Positions 1 to 40,209 of a stretch of DNA of 64,000 nucleotides are shown in pieces. The first letter of the stretch is position 1. The number at the start of each line of letters is the position of its first letter. A program made the translations under genes and the position numbers. This DNA is from Corynebacterium glaucum (GTDB taxonomy: Bacteria; Actinomycetota; Actinomycetes; Mycobacteriales; Mycobacteriaceae). The notes under the pieces are model-generated. The model saw only the letters and a list, made by a program, of their open reading frames with translations, was not told where the DNA came from and made no database searches. Where the stretch lies: contig NZ_CP019688.1 in assembly GCF_002287505.1 (NCBI RefSeq), positions 2,158,674 through 2,222,673 on the forward strand, given 5' to 3'.

Positions 1-544
1 GCAGCAGAAGCAGCGGGTAGTCCGCTGCGTACTTTTCCACCATGCCGCCGATCATGGACGCCGGGTAGGGCCCCAGCGTGCCCTGGGCGTGCGGAATGAT
101 GCAGTGTTTGACCAGCCCGAGCCCGCTGAAGTCGGTGAGGTTGAGGTCTTCGGCGGGTTCATCCATCGGCGGTGTGTGCTCGAGGGTCGGGCCGGCAATC
201 ACGGCGCCGGCGGATGACCCCGCGTACGGAAGGCCGGCTCTGACCGCGTCGGCCAACACCTTGTCGTTGCCGTTGCGTTTCAACGCCTCGAGCACTTCGA
301 AGGATTCGCCGCTTGCCACGTAGACGCCGGAGCAGCGGTCGAGCAGCGCTGTGAACTCCTCGTTCGTGAGCTCAGCGACGCTCACCTCGGTCGTGGGTTC
401 TCCGCACTCCGCGAGTGCCCGTCGTTCCTCTTCGACGAATGGAGTGCCATCCATGTTCTTCGCGGCATCGTTGATGTACAACACCTCGCCGTCGAAAAAC
501 TCGCCCAATCGCGGGTGGAGGAAAGATGCGAGAAGCAGTTTCAT
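1..544 (-). CDS. Peptidase S51-like protein (dipeptidase E family), C-terminus outside window
   Basis: The first 181 codons are visible, read from an ATG at 544; the rest runs off the window. The N-terminus (MKLLLASF) leads into a Rossmann-like class I glutamine amidotransferase fold. The motif AGSSAGA near residue 110 matches the nucleophile elbow of peptidase S51 enzymes such as alpha-aspartyl dipeptidase and cyanophycinase, the serine being the nucleophile. The family cleaves Asp-X dipeptides in the cytosol; the substrate here is not shown by the sequence. It lies 23 bases downstream of the broken HNH gene on the same strand, so it may have been co-transcribed with it. Family assignment is good, exact substrate unknown. 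Confidence 0.75.
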   Translation of the reverse strand, partial: MKLLLASFLHPRLGEFFDGEVLYINDAAKNMDGTPFVEEERRALAECGEPTTEVSVAELTNEEFTALLDRCSGVYVASGESFEVLEALKRNGNDKVLADAVRAGLPYAGSSAGAVIAGPTLEHTPPMDEPAEDLNLTDFSGLGLVKHCIIPHAQGTLGPYPASMIGGMVEKYAADYPLLLL

Positions 545-567
545 GTCAGCCACCGTACCTAGTTCGC

Positions 568-1218
568 TTAGAACGGCACCGGTTCTTCGATCCCGGCTTC
601 TTCTGCAGTGATATGCCCGTCCAGGTAAGCGCTTCGAAGCAGTTCTTTCCATTCGTTCGGGTGCATCTTCAGATCCATCGGCTCCTCCGGCCAGTACTGG
701 AACTTCAGGCCGCTAGTTTTCTCGAGCTTTTCCAGCTCGGCAACGCACGCCTCGTAGTCGTTGTCCGCCTCGAATCGCTCGACCGCAGCATGGCACCGGG
801 CGTTGAACTCAGCGATCACGGCCTTGCGTTCGCGGCGCTGAGCGATCGTCTGTCGCCAGCGTGGTTTGTCCGGGCTAGTGAATTCTTCGAGGATGCCGTT
901 CGGCTCTACGACGGAGTAGGTGCCGTCGGCAAACAGCCACACGATTTCCCCCGTTGCGGGGTCCGGGACGTAGAACGCACGTCGATCGGTCTTGATGTTG
1001 TGGTGGCGCTGACACAGTGAGAACAGGTTCGCGGGCGTGGTCGGGCCGCCGTCGTCGAACGGAATGCGATGGTCCAGCTGGCACTTCGTTGAGGGCACAT
1101 CGCACCCCGGATACACACATGTGCCGTCGCGCGCCTGCACGTACGCCTTCATAGCGTCGGTGGGCACGTAGGCATCGGTGACGGATGCCGCGGCAGCGTC
1201 GAGGTCGATGATCTGTGG
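568..1218 (-). pseudogene. 3' part of interrupted DUF222/HNH endonuclease gene
   Basis: This is the C-terminal part (about 216 residues) of a 13E12-repeat type protein. It carries the HNH nuclease motif: CVYPGC, LDHRIPF and LCQRHHN, which together give the zinc/HNH residues. The reading frame stays open from the HNH region up to base 1218, where it meets the target duplication of the IS256-family element. Joining base 1218 to base 2667 on the minus strand, with the element and one 8-bp repeat removed, restores a continuous frame of about 484 residues. A shorter protein could still start at an internal codon near 1167 and keep the HNH motif, but the DUF222 half is detached. Confidence 0.85.
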
Positions 1219-1226
1219 CGGGGACT
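1219..1226. repeat. 8-bp target site duplication, left copy
   Basis: CGGGGACT abuts the left end of the IS256-family element; an identical copy abuts the right end at 2667-2674. Eight base pairs is the usual duplication for this family. Confidence 0.92.
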
Positions 1227-2666
1227 GAGGGTGTCCGATTGTTTGTGTGCGGGGGCTTGGTTTACAGGTAGTCCGCGAATCGGTCGGGGTATGCCACGGC
1301 TAGTTGGTTGATGGCTTGTTTCCACCCGGTGGCTTTCGCCCCTTCAATATAGCCGTTGCATTCGATTGCCCGTTTTGCCTTCTTCGCCCGCTGGGCGGCG
1401 CGTTTGTCTTCGATGTTGCAAATCATCAACCACAGCGTCTTCAGCGCCGCGGTGTCGTTCGGGAACTGGCCCCGGTTGCGGGTAGCTTTGCGCAGTTCAG
1501 CATTGAGCGATTCGATCGCGTTCGTGGTGTAGAGCACCCTCCGGGCCGCTGGCGGGAACTGCAAAAACGGCACGAACTGCTCCCACGCATCACGCCACAC
1601 CTTCACCGACTGCGGGTAGCGGCGCCCTAGCTCAGAGGCTTCGAACGCGTCCAGGGCGGCGCGGGCGGTGTCCTCGTTCGGTGCGGTGTAGACCTCCCGT
1701 AACGCACTCGATACGGGTTTGCGGTCTTGGTAGGACACCCACCTGTTCGCAGCCCGAATCAGGTGCACGATACAGGTTTGCACCATCGAGTTCGGCCAGG
1801 TTGCCTCCACCGCATCGGGTAAGCCTTTGAGCCCGTCGCAGCAGACGATGAACACGTCTTGGACCCCACGGTTGGCAAGGTCAGCGCACACGGACGCCCA
1901 GAATGCGGCACCTTCGTTACCGGCGATCCACAACCCAAGGATGTGTTTGATGCCGTCCATGTCGACACCAACGGCCATGTAGCAGGACTTGTTGACCACG
2001 CGGTTACCATCGCGGATCTTGATCCGCAATGCGTCGAGAAAGATCACCGGGTAGAACTCTTCGAGCTGTCGGTTCTGCCACATCATCACCTCATCGAGTA
2101 CCGCGTCGGTGATCGTGCTGATCGTATCGGGGCTCATGTCCACCCCGAGGGTGGTTGCGAGGTGGTGCTGGATGTCTCGCACTGTCATCCCGCCCGCATA
2201 CAGGGAAATGATCATGTCATCAAGCTCAGTGAGCCTGCGGGCCCCCTTTGGCACCATCTGCGGGGCAAACGTCCCCGCCCGATCCCTTGGCATGGTTACT
2301 TCCAGCGGGCCGTAGCCAGAGTCGACGGTCTTGGTATACGACCCGTTGCGGTGGTTATCCTCACCGCGGGTGTCAACCTCAGCTTTGGCTTTGCGGTCAG
2401 AGTGCTCATAGCCCAAATGGGCATCCATCTCCGCCTGTAGACCGGCATTGATCGAGGCCTGTAAAAGCCCCTTGACCAGCTCGCTGGCATCGTCGGTGGA
2501 GGTGGACAGCTCCCCGATGAGCTTGGCGAGCTCGGGGTTATCCATCAGCTTCTCGCTGATCTCATTGACCCTGGCCGGGTCATGGCTTTTCTTCGGTGAC
2601 ACCGTAGTCATTATCGGTGAAACTCCTTCAGATCAGAGCCTCACACACAAAACTCCTGACACCCTC
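1227..2666 (-). mobile_element. Complete IS256-family insertion sequence, 1440 bp
   Basis: The element is bounded by imperfect terminal inverted repeats that both begin GAGGGTGTC; further in, TTTGTGTG is shared between the two ends. It contains a single transposase gene on the minus strand and is flanked by the perfect 8-bp duplication CGGGGACT. It sits inside the DUF222/HNH gene in the same transcriptional direction. The perfect duplication and intact transposase suggest a recent insertion. Confidence 0.93.
1262..2611 (-). CDS. IS256-family (mutator-type) transposase
   Basis: This 449-residue DDE transposase catalyses cut-and-paste or copy-out transposition of the surrounding element. The catalytic acids can be placed: D193 in FLDALRIK, D259 in CCDGLKGLP and E367 in TTNAIESLN. 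CIVHLIRAANR before the last acid is the typical C/H stretch of mutator transposases. Length is normal for the family (about 400-450). No frameshift or internal stop is seen, so it is probably active. It is the only gene in the element and fills almost all of it. Confidence 0.95.
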   Translation of the reverse strand: MTTVSPKKSHDPARVNEISEKLMDNPELAKLIGELSTSTDDASELVKGLLQASINAGLQAEMDAHLGYEHSDRKAKAEVDTRGEDNHRNGSYTKTVDSGYGPLEVTMPRDRAGTFAPQMVPKGARRLTELDDMIISLYAGGMTVRDIQHHLATTLGVDMSPDTISTITDAVLDEVMMWQNRQLEEFYPVIFLDALRIKIRDGNRVVNKSCYMAVGVDMDGIKHILGLWIAGNEGAAFWASVCADLANRGVQDVFIVCCDGLKGLPDAVEATWPNSMVQTCIVHLIRAANRWVSYQDRKPVSSALREVYTAPNEDTARAALDAFEASELGRRYPQSVKVWRDAWEQFVPFLQFPPAARRVLYTTNAIESLNAELRKATRNRGQFPNDTAALKTLWLMICNIEDKRAAQRAKKAKRAIECNGYIEGAKATGWKQAINQLAVAYPDRFADYL

Positions 2667-2674
2667 CGGGGACT
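2667..2674. repeat. 8-bp target site duplication, right copy
   Basis: Second copy of CGGGGACT, directly next to the right terminal inverted repeat of the IS256-family element. Confidence 0.92.
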
Positions 2675-3470
2675 CCTCCATCAGCGATTCAAGCCACGCG
2701 GTACCGTCAGCGTCGGTCCAGCCGAAGTTGGGTATGAAGTACGACGACGGATCCGTCTTCTGCGCGAACACGTGCAAAACTATCTTGGTGTTCGTGCACA
2801 ACTGGCCAGTGAGGATGGCCTGGACCGCCTCGCTCTGCGTCAGCTTGCCCTCTTTGGCCACCCGGTCGACGTAGCGCTCCATCGAGGCGATGACGCCAAC
2901 GTTGCCGGTGATGCTCAGACCCGCCTCAAGATCATTCAGACCATAGAACGTGGTCTCGCACGCACCGAGCGGCCTGTCCTTCTCGTCCTTACGCTGCTTG
3001 GTCTTCTTCGGATCGGGAGCTAGTGAGGCATCGATCTTGCGCACCAGCTCATTGAGTCTGCGACGAATCGCCATTGCCGACGGCAAAATCTGCCCAGCCT
3101 TCTTCGGCGTGAACATCTCGACCAGGAACGCATCGAGCTCTTCGAGCACCTCCTCGCGTGGCAGGTTGTGCAGCCGGTCGACGGTCTCCCCGATCGCATC
3201 CAGCCGCACAACATCCAACCGGCGAGTCTCCGCCTGCAGGGCCTTCAGCGCCGGTAATTCCCCGAGCCGGTAGTACGCCAAGATCGCCTGCTCAACCCAT
3301 GCTTTGCTGCGTCCAAACGCCTCCCCGACCCGCCGACATTCGAGCTCCAGGTCAAGCTCCGCGAACTCCGCCTCGGCATAGCGCGCAAACACCTCGTACT
3401 CCACGTCGCGCGCGCGTTGCCCAGCCGCACACAGCTCATCGCCCTCGCGCTCTGTCGCGAAATAGCTCAT
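2667..3470 (-). pseudogene. 5' part of interrupted DUF222/HNH endonuclease gene
   Basis: This is the N-terminal 268 residues of the 13E12/DUF222 protein whose HNH half is at 568-1218. The start is taken as ATG at 3470 (MSYFATER), preceded by GGGGTGAG as ribosome binding site. The segment is helical and charged, as usual for DUF222, with the typical run KWVEQAI-like helix (SKAWVEQAILAYYRLG). After SLMEESP the frame runs into the insertion sequence and stops there. DUF222/HNH proteins are abundant in actinobacteria and often scattered like mobile genes; their biological role is not settled. Without the insertion the protein would be about 484 residues. Confidence 0.85.
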
Positions 3471-3568
3471 CGTCTCACCCCTTCCCGAATTAACCCCAGC
3501 CAACTACAGGCAATAATATCGAAAGCCATTCGAAAGCACAAGCGTCACATCGAAAAACTTTTCGCATC

Positions 3569-3579
3569 GCTTATCGACG
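3569..3579 (+). repeat. Copy 1 of 11-mer GCTTATCGACG
   Basis: Exact copy in the non-coding gap between the DUF222/HNH gene and ispD, so it cannot be explained by protein sequence. Confidence 0.9.
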
Positions 3580-3624
3580 ACCTGCCGCACCCGAACACCA
3601 ACGTGATGCCAACCCAAAGACTAC

Positions 3625-3650
3625 AAAACCCCGACAACACTTCGCCGGGG
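3625..3650 (-). terminator. Rho-independent terminator of ispD
   Basis: Read on the minus strand, CCCCGGC...GTCGGGG forms a stem of about nine pairs with G-U wobbles, followed by TTTTG. It lies 18 bases after the ispD stop. Confidence 0.65.
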
Positions 3651-3667
3651 CCGTTCGAACATGTCAG

Positions 3668-4381
3668 CTACTCGCTGGGAACCTCAAACACAGTCGGCTC
3701 AACCTCATCGGTGATGGAGGTGGCCAGCCGCAGGTCGATTGGGGTGGTGATCTTGAACGCCATCGGGTCGCCCTGCACGGTGCGCACGTCCACGCCGAAC
3801 CACTCCATCAAGGATGCATCGTCAGTGGCCACAAAATCCTGCGCACCGGAGAAGTACGCCTCGTTCGCCGCGCGCAACGTGCGAAGATCAAAGCCCTGGG
3901 GCGTCTGCACCGCGCGCAAGGAAGAACGGTCTGGGGTCGACGTCACCGCGTCCCCCGACACCACCTTGATCGTGTCCGCCACCGGCACTACGGGCACGAC
4001 GGCGTCGGCACCCTCCAACACGGCCCGTGCCACGCGAGCAATCATTCCCGGTGGGGTGAGGGCGCGGGCGGCATCGTGGATGAGCACGCAGCCGTCGTCA
4101 AGCGAAATTGCCCTGAGTGCATTCCAGATTGAGTCGGCCCGCTCCGCTCCCCCGTGCACGAAGGTGACCGAATGCCCCTGAAGCAAGCGGCGCGCGACGG
4201 GTTCCATGGAGGGGCTGACCACCACGACCACAGAGTCGACGACCCCGGAGGTCTCCATCGCCGTCACCGACCGCTCGAGTAGCGAGCGCCCCCGCAGCGG
4301 CACATACGCTTTCGGCACCGCCGCGCCAAGCCGCGTGCCTTGCCCGGCGGCGGCGACAACGGCAACGACGCGTCGACTAAT
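3668..4381 (-). CDS. ispD: 2-C-methyl-D-erythritol 4-phosphate cytidylyltransferase, apparent ATT start
   Basis: IspD joins CTP to methylerythritol phosphate in the non-mevalonate isoprenoid pathway. The nucleotide-binding signature [12 protein letters not shown], followed by PKAYVPL, sits at the very N-terminus; IHDAARAL and TPQGFDL are further family motifs. The first ordinary start in frame is GTG at 4318, but that would remove the CTP-binding motif. Reading upstream there is no ATG, GTG or TTG before an in-frame stop near 4456; the only sensible initiator is ATT at 4381, overlapping the carD stop (ATTAG). This gives 237 residues, normal for IspD. Translational coupling to carD is likely. 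The usual partner ispF is not next to it. Confidence 0.85.
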
Positions 4382-4964
4382 CTTCGTCGTCCTCGTCGTC
4401 GAAGGAGATGTCGTCCATATCCAGGTCGTCGTCGAGGATGTCTTCCGGATCCTCTATGATGCCGGCCTTGATCTGCTCCTCGATGATCTCGCCGATGCGT
4501 GACTCCATCTCGGACACCTTGGCCTCATCCACCGGCTCCGCCAGCGCCAGCTCGCCCACGAGGATCTGGCGCGCCTTGCCAAGCATGCGCTTCTCACCTG
4601 CGGAAAGGCCCTTGCCCTGGTCGCGGCGCCACAGATCGCGCACAACCTCGGCCACCTTGTTGATGTCGCCGGAAGCCAGGCGCTCCTGGTTCGCCTTGTA
4701 GCGCCGCGACCAGTTGCCGGCCTCTTCAACGTCGGTCTCGCGCAGCACCGAGAAGACCTTCAGCAGGCCCTCCTCATTGACCACGTCGCGCACACCGACA
4801 AGCTCGGTGTTCTTGATAGGCACGCGAACTTCCAAGTCGGACTGGAGGATCTGCAGCACGAGGTAATCCAGCTTTTCGCCGCCGATCTCGCGCTGCTCAA
4901 TGTCTGCGATCCTCGCAGCGCCGTGGTGCGGGTACACAACCACTTCGCCGACTTTGAATTCCAT
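4377..4964 (-). CDS. carD: CarD-family RNA polymerase-binding regulator
   Basis: CarD binds the RNA polymerase beta subunit and stabilises open complexes at rRNA and many other promoters in actinobacteria. The N-terminal residues [18 protein letters not shown] form the Tudor-like RNAP-interaction domain, and the helical C-terminal half carries basic and tryptophan residues ([13 protein letters not shown]) typical of the DNA-binding part. The last 20 residues are almost entirely Asp/Glu. Length is 195 residues. The start ATG at 4964 has GAGGAG seven bases upstream. It is cotranscribed with ispD, the same order as in mycobacteria, and diverges from the lpqE-like gene. Confidence 0.93.
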
Positions 4965-5138
4965 GCAACTCTCCTCGCGCTTGTTTACGTGACCATTTAA
5001 CAGTACAGGCCCCCGCGTTCACCCACTGCCAAAAGTTTACCCCACCCATAAATGCACAATCTGCCCACTCTGCGACTAATGTAAATGTGCAGAATTGCCA
5101 ATTAATTGCCTAGCAACGAAATGATGGAGGACACCCTC

Positions 5139-5669
5139 GTGAAGTCCCTGAAGCCGGTCGCCGCTCTCGTCGCCGCCTCTGCGCTGGCGCTCGCCGGCTG
5201 CTCCGCTGGTCAGATTACCCAGACCTCCAGCCAGGTAGCAGCTGTGGACGGTGCAACCGCGTTCACCGAGAACGACGAGGTCTCCGTACAGGACGTTCAG
5301 GTCGTGCTCTCCGAGGAAGGCACCGCCGCCCTGAAGTTCGCCGCCACCAACCAGGACACGTCCATGGCGGAGCACACCTTGCAGTCGGTCTCCGTCAACG
5401 GCGAAGAGGTCAACTTCAGCCCGGCGCCGAAGGCGATGGGCTACAACTGCGTCATCGTCGGCGATTCCGCCGAGGGCCTCGAGCGCATGCCGCGGTACGA
5501 CAACGAGTGCTTCCAGTACATCGAGACCACCCTGCCGAACCAGGACTTCGCCTACGCAGGCAACGTGGACGTGCAGTTCACCTTCGACGCCGGCACCCTG
5601 AACGTCCCGGCCACCGTGTCTGCGCCGCTGCTGCCGGCTGGTGAGGGCGACCGCGACATCACCAAGTAA
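5139..5669 (+). CDS. LpqE-like lipoprotein
   Basis: A signal peptide with lipobox LAGC (cysteine about residue 21) marks a membrane-anchored lipoprotein of 176 residues. The start chosen is GTG at 5139 because GGAGG lies nine bases upstream and the signal peptide then begins VKSLKPV; an ATG further upstream would add a non-conserved tail. The mature part looks like an all-beta domain with two cysteines. Its position between carD (divergent) and radA (seven bases downstream) is where mycobacteria carry lpqE. Its function is unknown; homology to LpqE is inferred mostly from context and architecture. Confidence 0.7.
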   Translation: MKSLKPVAALVAASALALAGCSAGQITQTSSQVAAVDGATAFTENDEVSVQDVQVVLSEEGTAALKFAATNQDTSMAEHTLQSVSVNGEEVNFSPAPKAMGYNCVIVGDSAEGLERMPRYDNECFQYIETTLPNQDFAYAGNVDVQFTFDAGTLNVPATVSAPLLPAGEGDRDITK

Positions 5670-5675
5670 CCACTA

Positions 5676-7034
5676 GTGGCCAAAAAGCAGCGGGTGGTCC
5701 ACACCTGCTCTGAGTGCGGCTACACGTCGCCTAAGTGGCTCGGCCGCTGCCCGGAATGCGGCTCGTGGGGCACCCTTCAGCAGGAAGCTCAAGGAGCCCC
5801 CCGCTTATCGACGGCACCTTTAACCCCAACTACCAAAGCCCAGCCGATCACGGCGATAAACGCCACCGCGACGCACACAATCAAGTCGGGAATTGGGGAA
5901 CTTGACCGCGTCCTCGGCTCCGGCGTGGTGCCGGGTTCCGTCGTCTTGATGGCGGGCGAACCCGGCGTGGGAAAATCCACGCTGCTGTTGGAGGTGGCCA
6001 GCAAGTGGGCGGGTAACGACCGCCGCGCGCTCTACGTCACCGCCGAAGAGTCCGCCGGCCAGGTTCGCGCGCGTGCGGAACGCACCGGCGCGCTGAAGGA
6101 CACGCTGTTTCTCGCCGCCGAATCCCAGTTGGACACCGTGTTCGGCCACGTTGATGAGGTGAAGCCCTCCCTCCTCATCGTGGATTCGGTGCAGACGATG
6201 CACGCCGCAGGTGTCGAAGGTGTCGCGGGCGGCGTCGCGCAATCCCGCGCGGTCACCGCAGCGCTGACCACGCTTGCCAAGACCACTAACTTGCCCATCC
6301 TGCTCGTGGGGCACGTGACCAAGGACGGCAACGTCGCCGGCCCGCGCGTGCTCGAGCACCTGGTGGATGTGGTGCTGAACTTCGAGGGTGACCGGCAGTC
6401 GTCGCTACGCATGCTGCGCGGCATCAAGAACCGCTTCGGCGCCACCGACGAGGTGGGCTGCTTCGAGCAGACCGCCGACGGCATCCGCGAGGTACCCGAC
6501 CCCAGCGGGCTCTTCCTCTCGCACCGCGGCCAGACCCCGGACGGTTCCGCGGTGACCGTGGCCATGGACGGCGTGCGCCCGATGCTCGCTGAGGTGCAAG
6601 CGCTCACCGTCGACCCGGTGAACAAGTCGCCGCGCCGCGTGGTCACCGGGCTTGATGCGAACCGCGTGCCCATGGTGCTCGCTGTGCTCCAAGCGCGCTG
6701 CGGCGAGCGCACCAACGACAAGGACGCCTACGTGGCCACCGTCGGGGGCGTGCGCATCACAGAGACCGCCACCGATCTCGCAGTCGCGCTCGCCACCTGG
6801 TCCAGCCTGCACGAACAGCCGTTGCCACCCAAGACGGTGGTGATCGGTGAGGTCGGCCTCGCAGGAGAACTGCGCCGCGTTCCCAACCTCGGCCGCCGGC
6901 TGCAAGAAGCAGCGCGGCTGGGCTACACGCAAGCGATCGTCCCAAAGCTTGGCGAGCCCCTTGCGATCGACGGCTTGCGCGTCCACGAAGCCAAAACCCT
7001 GGCTGAGGCCGTGAAAATCCTCGCCGGACTCTAA
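5676..7034 (+). CDS. radA: DNA repair protein RadA
   Basis: RadA is a RecA-like DnaB-type helicase that promotes branch migration in recombinational repair. All family parts are present in 452 residues: a four-cysteine zinc finger (CSECG...CPECG, residues 11-28), Walker A GEPGVGKST near residue 95, the RadA-specific KNRFG motif around residue 254, and a C-terminal Lon-protease-like domain (VGGVRITETATDLAVA onward). The GTG start is six bases after the upstream stop, so translation is probably coupled to the lipoprotein gene. Confidence 0.96.
   Translation: MAKKQRVVHTCSECGYTSPKWLGRCPECGSWGTLQQEAQGAPRLSTAPLTPTTKAQPITAINATATHTIKSGIGELDRVLGSGVVPGSVVLMAGEPGVGKSTLLLEVASKWAGNDRRALYVTAEESAGQVRARAERTGALKDTLFLAAESQLDTVFGHVDEVKPSLLIVDSVQTMHAAGVEGVAGGVAQSRAVTAALTTLAKTTNLPILLVGHVTKDGNVAGPRVLEHLVDVVLNFEGDRQSSLRMLRGIKNRFGATDEVGCFEQTADGIREVPDPSGLFLSHRGQTPDGSAVTVAMDGVRPMLAEVQALTVDPVNKSPRRVVTGLDANRVPMVLAVLQARCGERTNDKDAYVATVGGVRITETATDLAVALATWSSLHEQPLPPKTVVIGEVGLAGELRRVPNLGRRLQEAARLGYTQAIVPKLGEPLAIDGLRVHEAKTLAEAVKILAGL
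5803..5813 (+). repeat. Copy 2 of 11-mer GCTTATCGACG
   Basis: Exact copy inside radA, where it is read as R-L-S-T using the rare codon TTA; it falls in the poorly conserved linker after the zinc finger. Confidence 0.9.
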
Positions 7035-33312: not shown

Positions 33313-33918
33313 TTAAAGCCCTAACAGCTCGGAATAGACATTCGGGTGCAGCGTGCCCACATAGGGAATGTCGCGGTAGCGCTCGGCAAAGTCGAGACCA
33401 TAACCCACCACGAACTCGTTCGGGATGTCGAAGCCGACATCGAGCAAATCGATCTTTGCGGTCTGCACCTCCGGCTTGCGCAGCAGGGTGACCACCTCGA
33501 GCGACTTCGGGCCGCGGCCCTTCAAGTTCTTCAGCAGCCACGAAAGGGTAAGGCCGGAATCGATGATGTCCTCAACGACGAGCACGTCGCGGCCCTCGAT
33601 CTCCTTGTCCAAATCCTTGAGAATGCGCACCACGCCTGAGCTGGTCGTGGAGTTGCCGTACGACGACACGGCCATGAACTCCATCTCGCAGGGGATGGTG
33701 AGCTTGCGCGCAAAGTCTGTGAGGAAAAAGACCGCGCCCTTGAGCACACACACCAGCATGAGGTCCTGCTCGGAGTCCTTGTATTTCTCGCTCACCATGT
33801 CCGCGAGTTCTTGGACGCGGGCTTGCAGCGCATCCTCCGGAATGAGCACGGCCTCCACATCGTCGCCGTAGCGGTTGGCGGGGACGTTGTAATCCTTGTG
33901 GTCGTACAGCTTCGTCAT
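33313..33918 (-). CDS. hpt: Hypoxanthine-guanine phosphoribosyltransferase
   Basis: Salvages hypoxanthine and guanine to nucleotides with PRPP. The PRPP-binding motif [14 protein letters not shown] is present, with [19 protein letters not shown] and the flexible-loop SSYGNST. Length 201 residues. In related genomes hpt directly follows tilS; here the two are separated by about 1.3 kb of unlike DNA. Confidence 0.95.
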
Positions 33919-34082
33919 TGCTTACCTCTGCGGGTGCTGCGTTTGGGAATGTTGGTAAAGATCAACTTCCTCATCTTGCCACCACAATCCGGCCAGATTC
34001 AAGAACCGCCCTGGGTGGGGGCTGGTTCCCGCGAACCTGGGGGAGGCCTGGAAGGGCTGAAGGAGGCGTGCGGGCGAAAGTG

Positions 34083-34113
34083 GCAACATGTTGCATTTCG
34101 GTAAATATTTGCC
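34083..34113. promoter_or_regulatory. Two adjacent palindromes upstream of the tRNA-like RNA
   Basis: GCAACATGTTGC (34083-34094, perfect) and GGTAAATATTTGCC (34100-34113, one mismatched pair) lie in the gap after hpt. They could be operators for hpt or for the RNA downstream. The remaining bases of 33919-34258 hold no recognisable gene. Confidence 0.4.
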
Positions 34114-34258
34114 AGGGGCTTATTCGTCTCGGTGGCGGGCCAACGAATGCAGAATTTCGAATACCGTAACGACGTTGCGGGAAACGACAGTATCTGGGAG
34201 AATGTCGGTACAGAAAATCTGAGTAAGACTCTGTCGGTTCGTGACCGGGATTTTCGCG

Positions 34259-34327
34259 AAAGAGGGAGACTCGGGTTCGATTCCCGGCCCACGGTTGTGG
34301 TGTAGCTCAGTGGCAGAGCCCCTCTTT
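34259..34327 (+). ncRNA. tRNA-mimic RNA with permuted arm order (bacterial Y RNA-like module)
   Basis: In order: AAAGAGGG (34259-34266), five bases GAGAC as variable loop, a T-arm TCGGG-TTCGATT-CCCGG (34271-34287), an acceptor-like stem CCAC/GTGG capped by the tetraloop GGTT (34289-34300), TA, a D-arm GCTC-AGTGGCA-GAGC (34305-34319), and CCCTCTTT (34320-34327) that pairs with the first segment as an anticodon stem. Every tRNA core feature is there (T54-T55-C56, GG in the D-loop, T8-A9), but the acceptor is closed by a loop and the molecule is open at the anticodon loop, so it cannot be a working tRNA. This layout is the one known for the tRNA-like module of YrlA-type bacterial Y RNAs. No Ro60/Rsr gene is in the window. 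The full transcript ends are unknown. Confidence 0.6.
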
Positions 34328-34333
34328 TGGTGC

Positions 34334-35218
34334 TTAAGGCCAGTGCGGAACCGTCCAGTAACCTTTCGATTCAGCAGCCTGTTTCAAATCGTTTGACGAT
34401 AATCCCACTGGGCCATAGTTGAATTTGGCCAAACCTATGACCGACCTCTGCCACTTGCTGGAGTTACGGGGAGCACTCGTCTCGGATTCATAGTGGTCGA
34501 CCACGATTTCCGCCCAAGTTCGTTTTGAGACGGTTTTACCCAGAGTACGGTTTACATCACGAGCAAGGCGCTGCACGAGGCCGAATGCGAGAAAGAGATG
34601 TCTAGCGTCTATTAGTAGGGAATTGTTGTTTCCCTTAATCTGAAGCGGCTGGCGGTTCTGAGTCACTTTCTCCCAGTAATCGAGCGCTTCATCTGATAGG
34701 GCTGGGATCATCTGATCCAAAGCCGCTTTGTAATTCCCGTTTTCATGAATGATCCCGTTGCGGACTAACCGCAAAACGTGGAAGAGCTCCAGCATCGAGT
34801 CGGGAGGCTGGGCGTGGCAAGTGGCGTAGAAAACTTCGTGCATATTAACCATTTTGATGTCGGGTCCAGTGTTACCGGCCGAATCGACGACCTGCATACC
34901 GTCTAACCGCGCCAAACCGACAGCGGATACCACGTATTGCTCAAGGACCGACATCGCGTAAGGAATGCCCACTCTTGCTAAGTGCCCCTCCGCCTGGTCA
35001 ATATACGATCGCGCCTCGTCTGACCTTAGATTGAACCGCTCAATATGCCGGACTGCCGGAAAGATCCTGGCGAGAGTTTCTTCCGAGCCCTCGGTCAATT
35101 GCAGGGTATTTGAGGCTAGCTGGGACCCTGCAAGCAGAGCCATCAGTGCTGAATTCATCTGCGAACGCTGATCCAGAAACTGAAGGTACTCGGGATACTT
35201 TATCTGTGTGTCACCCAC
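34334..35218 (-). CDS. HEPN-like protein of unknown function in a low-GC insert
   Basis: 294 residues from GTG at 35218, preceded by GGGGGG; a TTG at 35230 is an alternative. The sequence is helical; LRLVRNGIIHENGNY contains the R-N-x3-H pattern of HEPN domains, many of which are RNases in toxin-antitoxin and phage-defence systems. The assignment rests on that one motif and the all-helical look. GC content and codon use are clearly lower than in the neighbours, and the gene splits the tilS-hpt pair, which suggests acquisition. It converges on the tRNA-like RNA, whose 3' side touches its stop codon. Confidence 0.6.
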   Translation of the reverse strand: MGDTQIKYPEYLQFLDQRSQMNSALMALLAGSQLASNTLQLTEGSEETLARIFPAVRHIERFNLRSDEARSYIDQAEGHLARVGIPYAMSVLEQYVVSAVGLARLDGMQVVDSAGNTGPDIKMVNMHEVFYATCHAQPPDSMLELFHVLRLVRNGIIHENGNYKAALDQMIPALSDEALDYWEKVTQNRQPLQIKGNNNSLLIDARHLFLAFGLVQRLARDVNRTLGKTVSKRTWAEIVVDHYESETSAPRNSSKWQRSVIGLAKFNYGPVGLSSNDLKQAAESKGYWTVPHWP

Positions 35219-35280
35219 ACGACCCCCCAAAAAATGTCATGGCTATTTTCATTCAACATAACGCTACCGGAGCGCATCAT

Positions 35281-38564: not shown

Positions 38565-40209
38565 TGTTATGTCCATAGAGTTTTTGGACGCGGAGTCCGG
38601 GGACTTTTTGGACGCGGAGTCCGGGGACTTTTTGGACGTGCCTAGCTGATCATCGTTGTGGTCTACGTTTTGGGCGGGGCTTGGACAGGTTCGGTTTGAG
38701 CTGTGGCGGTTGGCGGTGCTTCATCCCTTCGACGAGGTTGATGTTGATCTGCCCGCCGGGTGGCCTGTGACTCAGCGTGATCGGCAGCGGCACGCTGAAG
38801 AGGAATTCACCGTCGTGGGCTGTGAAAAACTCAGCGACGTTGTCCGCTGTGACCGTGGTGTAGAGCAGACGGTTTTTGAATCTCAGGCCGATGTAGAGGC
38901 CGTGGGCGAGCACGCGGACGACCCCGTCTTTGCTTACTCGGAGTTCGTCTGGGATGCCCCAACTGTTTGTTGATCGTGTCGTTGGCATCGTTAGGGTGGG
39001 GGTATCGGTGGGAGGTATGCCTTGCTGAGCTGCCATGTCATCGGTGCTGGCCTCGGGTGAAGTTGCCGCTTGCCCGGGGCCGTTTGTCGCTATGAGTGCT
39101 GCTTGCGGGTTGTGCGCTTGGTTGAAAGTGACCACGCGGGCCCAAACATTTTCAGGATCAAGCGGATGCGTGGGTGGTGCTGCCTTGGGGAAGGTGTCGA
39201 AAGCTTGGCGTGGGGTGATATGCATTTTGCCCACCAGCAGCGATTGGTGGCGTCGTCGCTCGTTGTACACCTGGCGGTATTCAACGAGGTACGAGTTGAC
39301 CTCAGCAAGGCTGACCGGGTGGCGCGCGTCTAGGAACTGAATCAGGGTGCGGTGGGAGCGCTCGTCTTTTCCCTGGGTTGTGGGAGCAAACCCAGCAATA
39401 GCCAGTACTCCTTCGCTGGCAAGCCACACTTCAGTAGCGGAGAGATGTCCACGGTGGTAGGTGGCGAACGCCTCGCCGTTATCGGAGAGGATCTCTTGGG
39501 GTTTGCCGTAGACAGCAAATGCCTCGGCTAATGCAGCGCGCGCATCAGTACCGTTTTCCGGCAAAGCGAATGCTTTAGTACCTACATCGAATCTGCTGGC
39601 GTCGTCGATGACCTGGTAGATCGTCACGTGAGTGTGGGCGTGGTCGAACAGCCGGTAGACCAGACCGTCGATCTGCCATAGCTCACCAACGAAATCGCGG
39701 GCGAATCGTTTATAGGAGCTGCGTGGGCGTTTACGGGCATTGGCTTCTACAAAACCCAACTCATGAAGCCACAACGCGATGGTGGAACGCGACGGGGTGC
39801 GATCAGGACCAACGGAATCGAACAAGGAGTAATAGATCGACCACGGGCCGTAATCCAACCCCTGTTCCATCAGATGTTGCCGAGCGTTGACGACTGCGAT
39901 TTTGTCGGCTTCATCGAATCTTCTGGCCGGGTTCTTCGGAGCGGTCGAATCCGGCAGAATGCCCGATCGACCCTTCTGGGCAACCCGCTTTTTGATGTTG
40001 GTGTAGGTCTGACGCGAGATGCCCAATTCTTTGCAAAACTGTGTGATCGTTTTGCCGTCGCGGACCGGGTCAAAATCAGCGACCTTTCTGCGCTTGTGCA
40101 ATGGAATAGCCATCGGGCTATTCCACCGCCGCAAATGTCCAAAAAGCCTCTAGACATCACGTCCAAAAACTTCCTGGACTCCATGCCCAAGAAGTCCCAA
40201 GACATCACA
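38565..40209 (-). mobile_element. IS481-like insertion sequence, 1645 bp
   Basis: Ends begin TGTTATGTCC (left) and TGTGATGTCT (right, inverted), and both ends carry several copies of a GAGTCC-GGGA-TTTTTGGAC type subterminal repeat, two of them tandem at 38580-38640. One transposase gene is inside. The element is framed by a perfect 15-bp target duplication, at the long end of the range known for the IS481 family. It appears complete. Confidence 0.85.
38650..40113 (-). CDS. IS481-family transposase (integrase core)
   Basis: 487 residues from ATG 40113. A helix-turn-helix N-terminus (TITQFCKELGISRQTYTNIKK) precedes a retroviral-type integrase core with D in LWQIDGLVYRL, D in ILSDNGEAFA and E in GKDERSHRTL. 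The C-terminal 150 residues after the core are a Pro/Thr-rich linker and a beta-rich tail. No frameshift. It catalyses movement of the surrounding element. Confidence 0.9.
   Translation of the reverse strand: MAIPLHKRRKVADFDPVRDGKTITQFCKELGISRQTYTNIKKRVAQKGRSGILPDSTAPKNPARRFDEADKIAVVNARQHLMEQGLDYGPWSIYYSLFDSVGPDRTPSRSTIALWLHELGFVEANARKRPRSSYKRFARDFVGELWQIDGLVYRLFDHAHTHVTIYQVIDDASRFDVGTKAFALPENGTDARAALAEAFAVYGKPQEILSDNGEAFATYHRGHLSATEVWLASEGVLAIAGFAPTTQGKDERSHRTLIQFLDARHPVSLAEVNSYLVEYRQVYNERRRHQSLLVGKMHITPRQAFDTFPKAAPPTHPLDPENVWARVVTFNQAHNPQAALIATNGPGQAATSPEASTDDMAAQQGIPPTDTPTLTMPTTRSTNSWGIPDELRVSKDGVVRVLAHGLYIGLRFKNRLLYTTVTADNVAEFFTAHDGEFLFSVPLPITLSHRPPGGQININLVEGMKHRQPPQLKPNLSKPRPKRRPQR

Follow-up and report, generated by a model that had tools for sequence, protein, structure and literature searches.

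YrlA-type Y RNAs carry a tRNA-like module and bind the Ro60 ortholog Rsr, and bacterial Y RNAs are known through Ro60. What, then, does a tRNA-shaped RNA with permuted arms do where no rsr gene accompanies it, and does it have a protein partner of its own? The question is raised by the window, the whole 64,000-nucleotide stretch of DNA analysed here. A sequence-only reading of it had described a T-arm, a capped acceptor-like stem, a D-arm and a closing stem in this permuted order, had likened them to YrlA, and had concluded that the RNA is an orphan or works with something else. We found that the RNA contains a second domain and that a convergent gene, meeting it tail to tail, encodes a protein bearing an RNxxxH motif.

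The permuted tRNA fold occupies positions 34257–34329 of the forward strand, as judged by sequence reading together with RNA folding. The closing stem, equivalent to an anticodon stem, is a 10-bp helix in the predicted fold between its 5′ strand (34257–34266) and its 3′ strand (34320–34329), the latter including a short run of U. The T-arm (34271–34287) has the loop UUCGAUU (TTCGATT in the DNA) and is followed directly by the capped acceptor-like stem (34288–34302), which folds with a four-base loop and a bulged U34301. The counterparts of U8 and A9 (34303–34304) are evident in the sequence and lead into the D-arm (34305–34319) with the loop AGUGGCA. In an alignment of 18 related RNAs, 98.9% of the pair cells are paired in the T-arm, 97.2% in the D-arm and 78.3% in the acceptor-like stem. 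The closing-stem helix is paired in 76.0% of its cells and shows double changes in four of six pairs. Hand-drawn closing stems are imperfect, with standard pairs at 61 of 73 positions over 12 RNAs. No tRNA gene is present in the window. The arm order first proposed is confirmed by sequence and folding. A possible Levitt-type pair between positions 15 and 48 was examined by eye: all seven RNAs with U48 have A15 and all four with G15 have C48. The remaining seven are A–C, and we dropped this claim because the pattern is too weak.

The RNA has a second, 5′ domain that the first reading overlooked. It consists of an outer stem, P1, formed by 34213–34219 and 34249–34255 of the forward strand, which encloses a small hairpin and an anticodon-arm-like hairpin. 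P1 is paired in 93.5% of its cells in the 18-RNA alignment, with double changes in all six pairs, and when drawn by hand in 12 RNAs its pairs are standard at 73 of 74 positions. Hairpin 1 (34221–34231, GAG-UAAGA-CUC) is paired in 83.3% of its cells, with double changes in three of three pairs. Hairpin 2 (34234–34248) carries the seven-base loop UUCGUGA (34238–34244), with an anticodon-like CGU, on a stem paired in 95.8% of its cells. Over the 18 RNAs this loop retains the character of an anticodon loop, with a pyrimidine at position 32 in 16, U33 in 17, C34 in 17, a purine at position 37 in 17 and A38 in 14. The anticodon-like triplets include CGC, CAU, CAC and CGU, and CAA and AGC once each. 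Such variation in the loop letters indicates that no single tRNA is mimicked. ARAGORN calls a tRNA-Ala across the seven-base loop in two of the loci (L027 and L028) and a tRNA-Met in a third (L044). The whole structured RNA extends over approximately 34213–34330 on the forward strand, where our RNA model R1 scores 107.7 bits on what is one of its own training rows.

The sequence-only reading had suggested that CGGTTC (34235–34240) and GAACCG (34348–34353) might prolong the closing stem. This outer pairing does not survive comparison: at its spacing it occurs in one of the 18 RNAs, that of the window itself. The first element is part of the anticodon-like hairpin, and the second lies inside the 3′ end of the partner protein gene. 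The compensatory changes looked for in related genomes are, by contrast, found in the tRNA-like structure, which is retained with covariation. In the 18 RNAs aligned to R1, an alignment that is fitted to the structure and so biased towards it, 89.1% of pair cells are standard (69.1% after shuffling), 25 of 32 pairs show double changes (17.6 after shuffling), and the covariation score is 0.589 (0.210 after shuffling, and at most 0.169 when partners are slid). None of 500 shuffles reached the observed pairing, double-change or covariation values. Strands of hand-drawn stems from 12 RNAs also pair better within their own RNA than with strands of a different RNA (0.99 versus 0.60 for P1, 0.96 versus 0.66 for hairpin 2, 1.0 versus 0.83 for the T-stem and 0.83 versus 0.65 for the closing stem).

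The RNA is no orphan. A gene for a 298-residue protein, a member of what we term family 1, adjoins it on the reverse strand (34334–35230), tail to tail with the RNA, and further actinobacteria have the same pair. When 101 genomes, its own included, were searched at the DNA level, 11 gave matches. Besides the window, the single clear homologue is in genome G038 (locus L010; 89% identity over 93 bases), where the RNA again lies tail to tail with the same family-1 protein. At both loci the pair sits between hpt-like and tilS-like genes, identified by Pfam in the window and by eye in L010. Between the two, the tRNA-like domain is identical at 64 of 70 columns, the 5′ domain at 29 of 43, and the proteins are 51% identical. 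In the other nine genomes the matches fall in tRNA genes called by ARAGORN (eight genomes) or in a sequence assigned to tRNA by Rfam (one, L015). The latter is a 57-base tRNA-like sequence from the same genus (genome G022; L015:1468–1524, reverse strand; Rfam tRNA 50.2 bits) with acceptor, D- and T-arms. It lacks an anticodon arm as far as can be judged by eye, and ARAGORN leaves it uncalled.

Protein searches extended the set. A two-sequence profile run against genome contigs was too narrow and yielded one locus. The family-1 profile A2 matched 6 of 394 class-wide genomes, 4 of 201 genomes of the window's own genus, 5 of 347 in another order (two already known) and 3 of 238 of another genus. 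Plasmid records added two further full-length loci; a third plasmid match, H5, shows 22% identity. Searching the genus and family of genome G421 returned only the two loci that were known before, and no similar locus was confirmed in viral contigs or found in phage records. After a same-species duplicate (G605) was dropped and a broken gene (G521) was counted, 16 distinct family-1 loci remained.

The RNA stands beside the family-1 gene at 15 of these 16 loci, and R1, which was built from 12 family-1 loci, finds all 15. The same RNAs were also recovered by Rfam (the window and five others), by pattern and, in L033 and L035, by eye. In a held-out test, all three family-1 loci that the protein search alone had revealed in the 238 genomes of another genus carry the RNA in the same place, at 97.3, 73.6 and 64.8 bits. 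In the 394 class-wide genomes, scanned under strict filters, R1 finds five RNAs above 80 bits, at 86–108 bits, which are rows of its own training set, and all five lie next to a family-1 gene; the next-best genome, G200, scores 57.1 bits at a locus of a second protein family described below. Each of 18 loci examined with R1 has a single copy, convergent with and downstream of the gene, and every RNA-bearing locus of both families is arranged tail to tail. We measured the spacing of gene stop and RNA at 17 loci, of which 14 belong to family 1 and 3 to family 2: the two overlap by one base in L010 and are separated by 2–51 bases at the remaining 16. In G521 the family-1 gene is broken and the RNA is kept. 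The sole family-1 exception is G444 (L025, L106), with no RNA near the gene and none above threshold in a strictly filtered scan of its genome; its family-1 gene is convergent with a 392-residue reading frame.

How does this RNA relate to YrlA? The Rfam YrlA model (RF02553) matches 34263–34323 with 28.2 bits (E 0.0008), under its gathering score of 69, and no Rfam family reaches its gathering score in the window. Ordinary tRNA genes standing in tandem in this genome reach 32.5 bits with this model, so the 28.2-bit match alone is not decisive. Such tandem pairs produce false RF02553 matches more generally, and 13 of 14 control genomes match at E 10. We ruled out such a false match here, as the window contains no tRNA gene and the structure covaries among relatives. 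The 69-bit threshold is itself a weak test, for none of 12 TROVE-linked loci reaches it: 11 score at best 39–56 bits and one (L060) gives no match at E 0.1. Rfam YrlA scores of the two kinds of RNA overlap, at 28–37 bits for the new type (L107, L108 and L111 unmatched) and 28.5–56 bits for the TROVE-linked RNAs. Two of the TROVE-linked loci, L059 and L067, each contain one more YrlA match at a different position.

The two kinds were also compared for TROVE, the domain of Ro60. The absence of an rsr gene noted at the outset holds for the whole genome, in which TROVE is unmatched. We sought TROVE in 32 genomes, 12 of family 1 (two of one species) and 20 others drawn from 50 further genomes of the R1 scan with hits of 41–57 bits; the three held-out-genus genomes and the plasmid hosts lay outside this set. 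TROVE is absent from 11 of the 12 family-1 genomes and is on another contig in the twelfth, G421. It is present in all 20 others, at most 1.3 kb from the RNA in 18; in G467 it is on a different contig, with the RNA at a contig end, and in G200, a family-2 genome, it is elsewhere. The RNAs differ as well. The anticodon-like hairpin, sought with a stringent pattern modelled on the new RNAs, is found in 14 of 18 new-type RNAs and in none of 15 TROVE-linked RNAs, which represent 15 of the 19 TROVE-type genomes. Conversely, two patterns defined from the TROVE-linked RNAs, GC[GA][CA]AGGC and TACTTC, occur in 10 and 12 of those 15 and in none and one of the 18, respectively. Among the TROVE-linked loci (L045–L067) there are two YrlA types, 12 of the 15 with TACTTC and the other three with CGGTT[AT]. 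The permuted tRNA-like module of the first reading stands, its attribution to YrlA and Rsr does not, and the "something else" with which the RNA might work is most likely an RNxxxH protein that is not Ro60/Rsr.

We predict that the family-1 protein is a HEPN-type RNase. Its RNxxxH motif spans residues 157–162 (34745–34762, reverse strand). Of 7996 candidates scored in a search, 207 reached E 0.001. The RN...H signature is present in 121 of 121 proteins, that is, the window's own and the best 120 of the 207, and all organism-named members of the best 120 are actinobacterial. In 36 aligned members, the columns without any variation include E97, H131, R154, R157, N158 and H162. The predicted structure is helical and of high confidence (mean pLDDT 94.1); in it, the helix of residues 144–162 stops at H162, and the invariant acidic E97 lies inside an earlier helix (80–109). 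The HEPN motif has been described at the end of a helix (PMC3710099). The family-1 protein shows the corresponding features: Rx4–6H, a polar residue after R, and a position at the helix end.

Database comparisons give the protein no name. Searches of Pfam, NCBIfam and PDB sequences assigned it to no family, and nothing in PADLOC fell below E 0.01, the best PADLOC row being cas_RFas at a non-significant E of 0.012, and none of the 36 aligned members matched the Pfam family Abi_2. For the models of both protein families, Foldseek found nothing in PDB that reached E 0.001, and against BFVD its best row, at E 0.18, is not significant; VIA-align of the family-1 model gave only middling Z values. 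With no significant fold match, the HEPN assignment rests on the motif and its place at the helix end.

The same RNA architecture occurs with a second kind of protein. At L044 (G200, 57.1 bits), the RNA lies tail to tail with a different protein of 671 residues. We found 30 relatives of this family 2, and RNxxxH is present in all 15 that were aligned; in the predicted model of one of them, P0122 (pLDDT 85.9), it lies at the end of the helix of residues 559–590. Profile comparison between families 1 and 2 is not significant (probability 0.2%), though the motif aligns. The RNA is found at three of five family-2 loci (L107, L108 and L113, with 57.1, 48.3 and 41.2 bits) and is absent at L109 and L114. 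A tentative reading that we hold at somewhat below an even chance is a new form of immunity under RNA control: the RNA may share its body with Ro60-linked YrlA and have its partner-side domain swapped. The resulting two-domain RNA would be a piecewise imitation of tRNA, with the body in permuted order and the anticodon arm added separately. It would act towards anticodon-loop RNases both as a decoy and as a sensor, and two or more unrelated families of HEPN-motif proteins would have recruited it.

The RNA is predicted to be transcribed on its own. In 10 of the 13 RNAs inspected, a TAnnnT box begins 12–21 bases ahead of P1; among random 16-base windows from the same loci, a span slightly narrower than that searched, the figure is 3.3%. 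The box is absent in the window, in L010 and in L044, where the start was set further upstream, and a sigma-70 promoter scan of the window found none. Strong hairpin terminators are seen by eye behind the closing stem in L026, L028, L038 and L112.

Many of the neighbouring genes resemble phage-defence genes. PADLOC models match 8 of 10 neighbours from nine loci, a hand-chosen sample without a control set in which several of the models are general methylase models. The matches are PD-Lambda-5 (twice in L098, once in L118), a DNA methylase/PglX (L101), a weak mad8 (L102), a type IIG enzyme (L117), TIR-TM (L100) and, at the family-2 locus L115, PDC-S39; the selected neighbours at L103 and L104 have no PADLOC match. 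The annotation of L035 includes a Pycsar effector. At L097, a 2131-residue NACHT/AAA protein with a weak Avs1b match (117–6512, reverse strand) starts about 170 bases from the divergent RNA that stands beside a family-2 protein; no reading frame of this size lies beside the RNA in L115. The window's own module is flanked by housekeeping genes, and an integrase-core (rve) transposase-like gene (38650–40134, reverse strand) lies a few kilobases from it.

The reading we favour, at about an even chance, is that the pair forms a defence or toxin–antitoxin module in which the tRNA-mimic RNA binds the HEPN-motif protein and silences it until a phage infects the cell or some other stress sets in. Transcription of the RNA would begin at a promoter immediately ahead of P1. 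The family-1 protein would be a dimeric RNase, its target probably the anticodon loops of tRNAs. The RNA would fill the substrate site with its elbow, formed by the T- and D-loops, and its anticodon-like hairpin, and would be cut slowly or never. Falling host transcription or damage to the RNA would then free the protein and stop translation. What we observed directly is the conserved RNA structure, its pairing with the gene, the motif, the orientation, the neighbouring genes and a genome without a TROVE match; how the protein is held inactive, that it targets tRNA and what releases it are inferred. An inhibitor or bait of an anticodon-loop RNase might well be expected to have the shape of a tRNA and an anticodon-like arm, an idea that PMC7790460 raises for YrlA itself. 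In favour of this reading are the recurrent pairing, the covariation of the RNA, the RN...H motif at a helix end, the precedent of AbiF, the defence-like neighbours and G521, which keeps the RNA beside a broken protein gene as an antitoxin would be; against it stand G444, L109 and L114, where the protein gene occurs without the RNA. Also against it are the lack of a significant fold match, the variable letters of the anticodon-like loop, the absence from the window of a promoter hit and of the TAnnnT box, the imperfect closing stem, the single, convergent and downstream position of the RNA, which differs from that usual for type III antitoxins, and the housekeeping genes around the window's own module.

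An alternative that we consider fairly unlikely makes the RNA a required cofactor or sensor carried by the HEPN-like protein: it would serve as bait for phage enzymes that cut or modify tRNAs, and damage to the bait would activate the RNase. The anticodon-like hairpin is conserved in shape and variable in its letters, as bait for several enzymes might be, the neighbour genes are defence-like, and RNA and protein that assemble into one particle would account no less well for their tight pairing. The RNA beside the broken gene of G521 is, however, easier to understand as an antitoxin, and G444 has the protein without the RNA. It is less probable still that the RNA acts in cis, as an antisense regulator or terminator of the convergent gene, and that its tRNA shape serves stability or processing only. 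Such a role agrees with the position of the RNA, which at each of the 17 measured loci abuts the gene's 3′ end, and with the terminator hairpins seen behind four of the RNAs, but termination has no need of conserved T-, D- and anticodon-like loops, nor would it readily explain a tRNA-like domain so much better conserved between the window and L010 than the proteins.

An orphan YrlA-type Y RNA that had lost its Rsr (Ro60) partner would share the same permuted tRNA module, the weak Rfam YrlA match and the overlapping Rfam scores that we observe. We reject this explanation as very improbable, as it is contradicted by TROVE, which is missing from all but one of the 12 family-1 genomes tested yet lies near the RNA in 18 of 19 TROVE-type genomes tested, and by the anticodon-like hairpin and sequence elements that set the two RNA types apart. 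The RNA might also be the scar of a tandem tRNA pair, the 3′ half of one joined to the 5′ half of the next, or a permuted gene that matures to a working tRNA. Tandem tRNAs do yield YrlA-like matches, but the locus has no tRNA gene, the acceptor is capped, and the covarying extra domain and conserved link to a protein gene contradict this origin, which we regard as having almost no chance of being right.

Compared with known systems, the module shares with YrlA/Y RNA and Rsr (Ro60) the permuted T-arm, capped acceptor, D-arm and closing stem; here, however, the partner is a convergently encoded HEPN-motif protein instead of a TROVE protein, and the TROVE-linked elements are replaced by the outer stem, the small hairpin and the anticodon-like hairpin. 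According to PMC12373285, AbiF of C. difficile is a HEPN toxin with the motif RNQCAH that is neutralised by a directly bound RNA. The AbiF (Abi_2/AbiD/F) system with the RNA antitoxin RCd22 (RF03085) resembles ours in joining an RNxxxH protein to a structured RNA in a phage-defence setting (PMC12373285). Its RNA, however, consists of two hairpins upstream of the gene, whereas ours is a single tRNA-mimic RNA, downstream and convergent, and the abiF RNA motif RF03085 has no match at E 10 in 33900–34700. Type III toxin–antitoxin systems (ToxIN, CptNI and TenpNI) are alike in the proposed inhibition of a protein by RNA. Their antitoxins are built of short repeats in tandem that precede the toxin gene (PMC12373285), in contrast to one single RNA of about 118 bases that is convergent with and downstream of its gene. 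The HEPN anticodon nucleases PrrC and RloC share the HEPN motif and the proposed tRNA target; their activity is governed by partner proteins or by an ATPase domain (PMC3710099), and here the control would fall to a tRNA-like RNA.

We recognised no description of this pairing of RNA and HEPN-motif protein in the literature searched, a coverage that takes in few subscription papers. AbiF and Cas13 are known examples of RNA-paired HEPN systems. In the present module, the tRNA-like body of Y RNAs comes with a new domain and is linked to RNase-like proteins, often near predicted phage-defence genes. If the proposed reading is true, RNA-paired HEPN systems would extend to tRNA-mimic RNAs.
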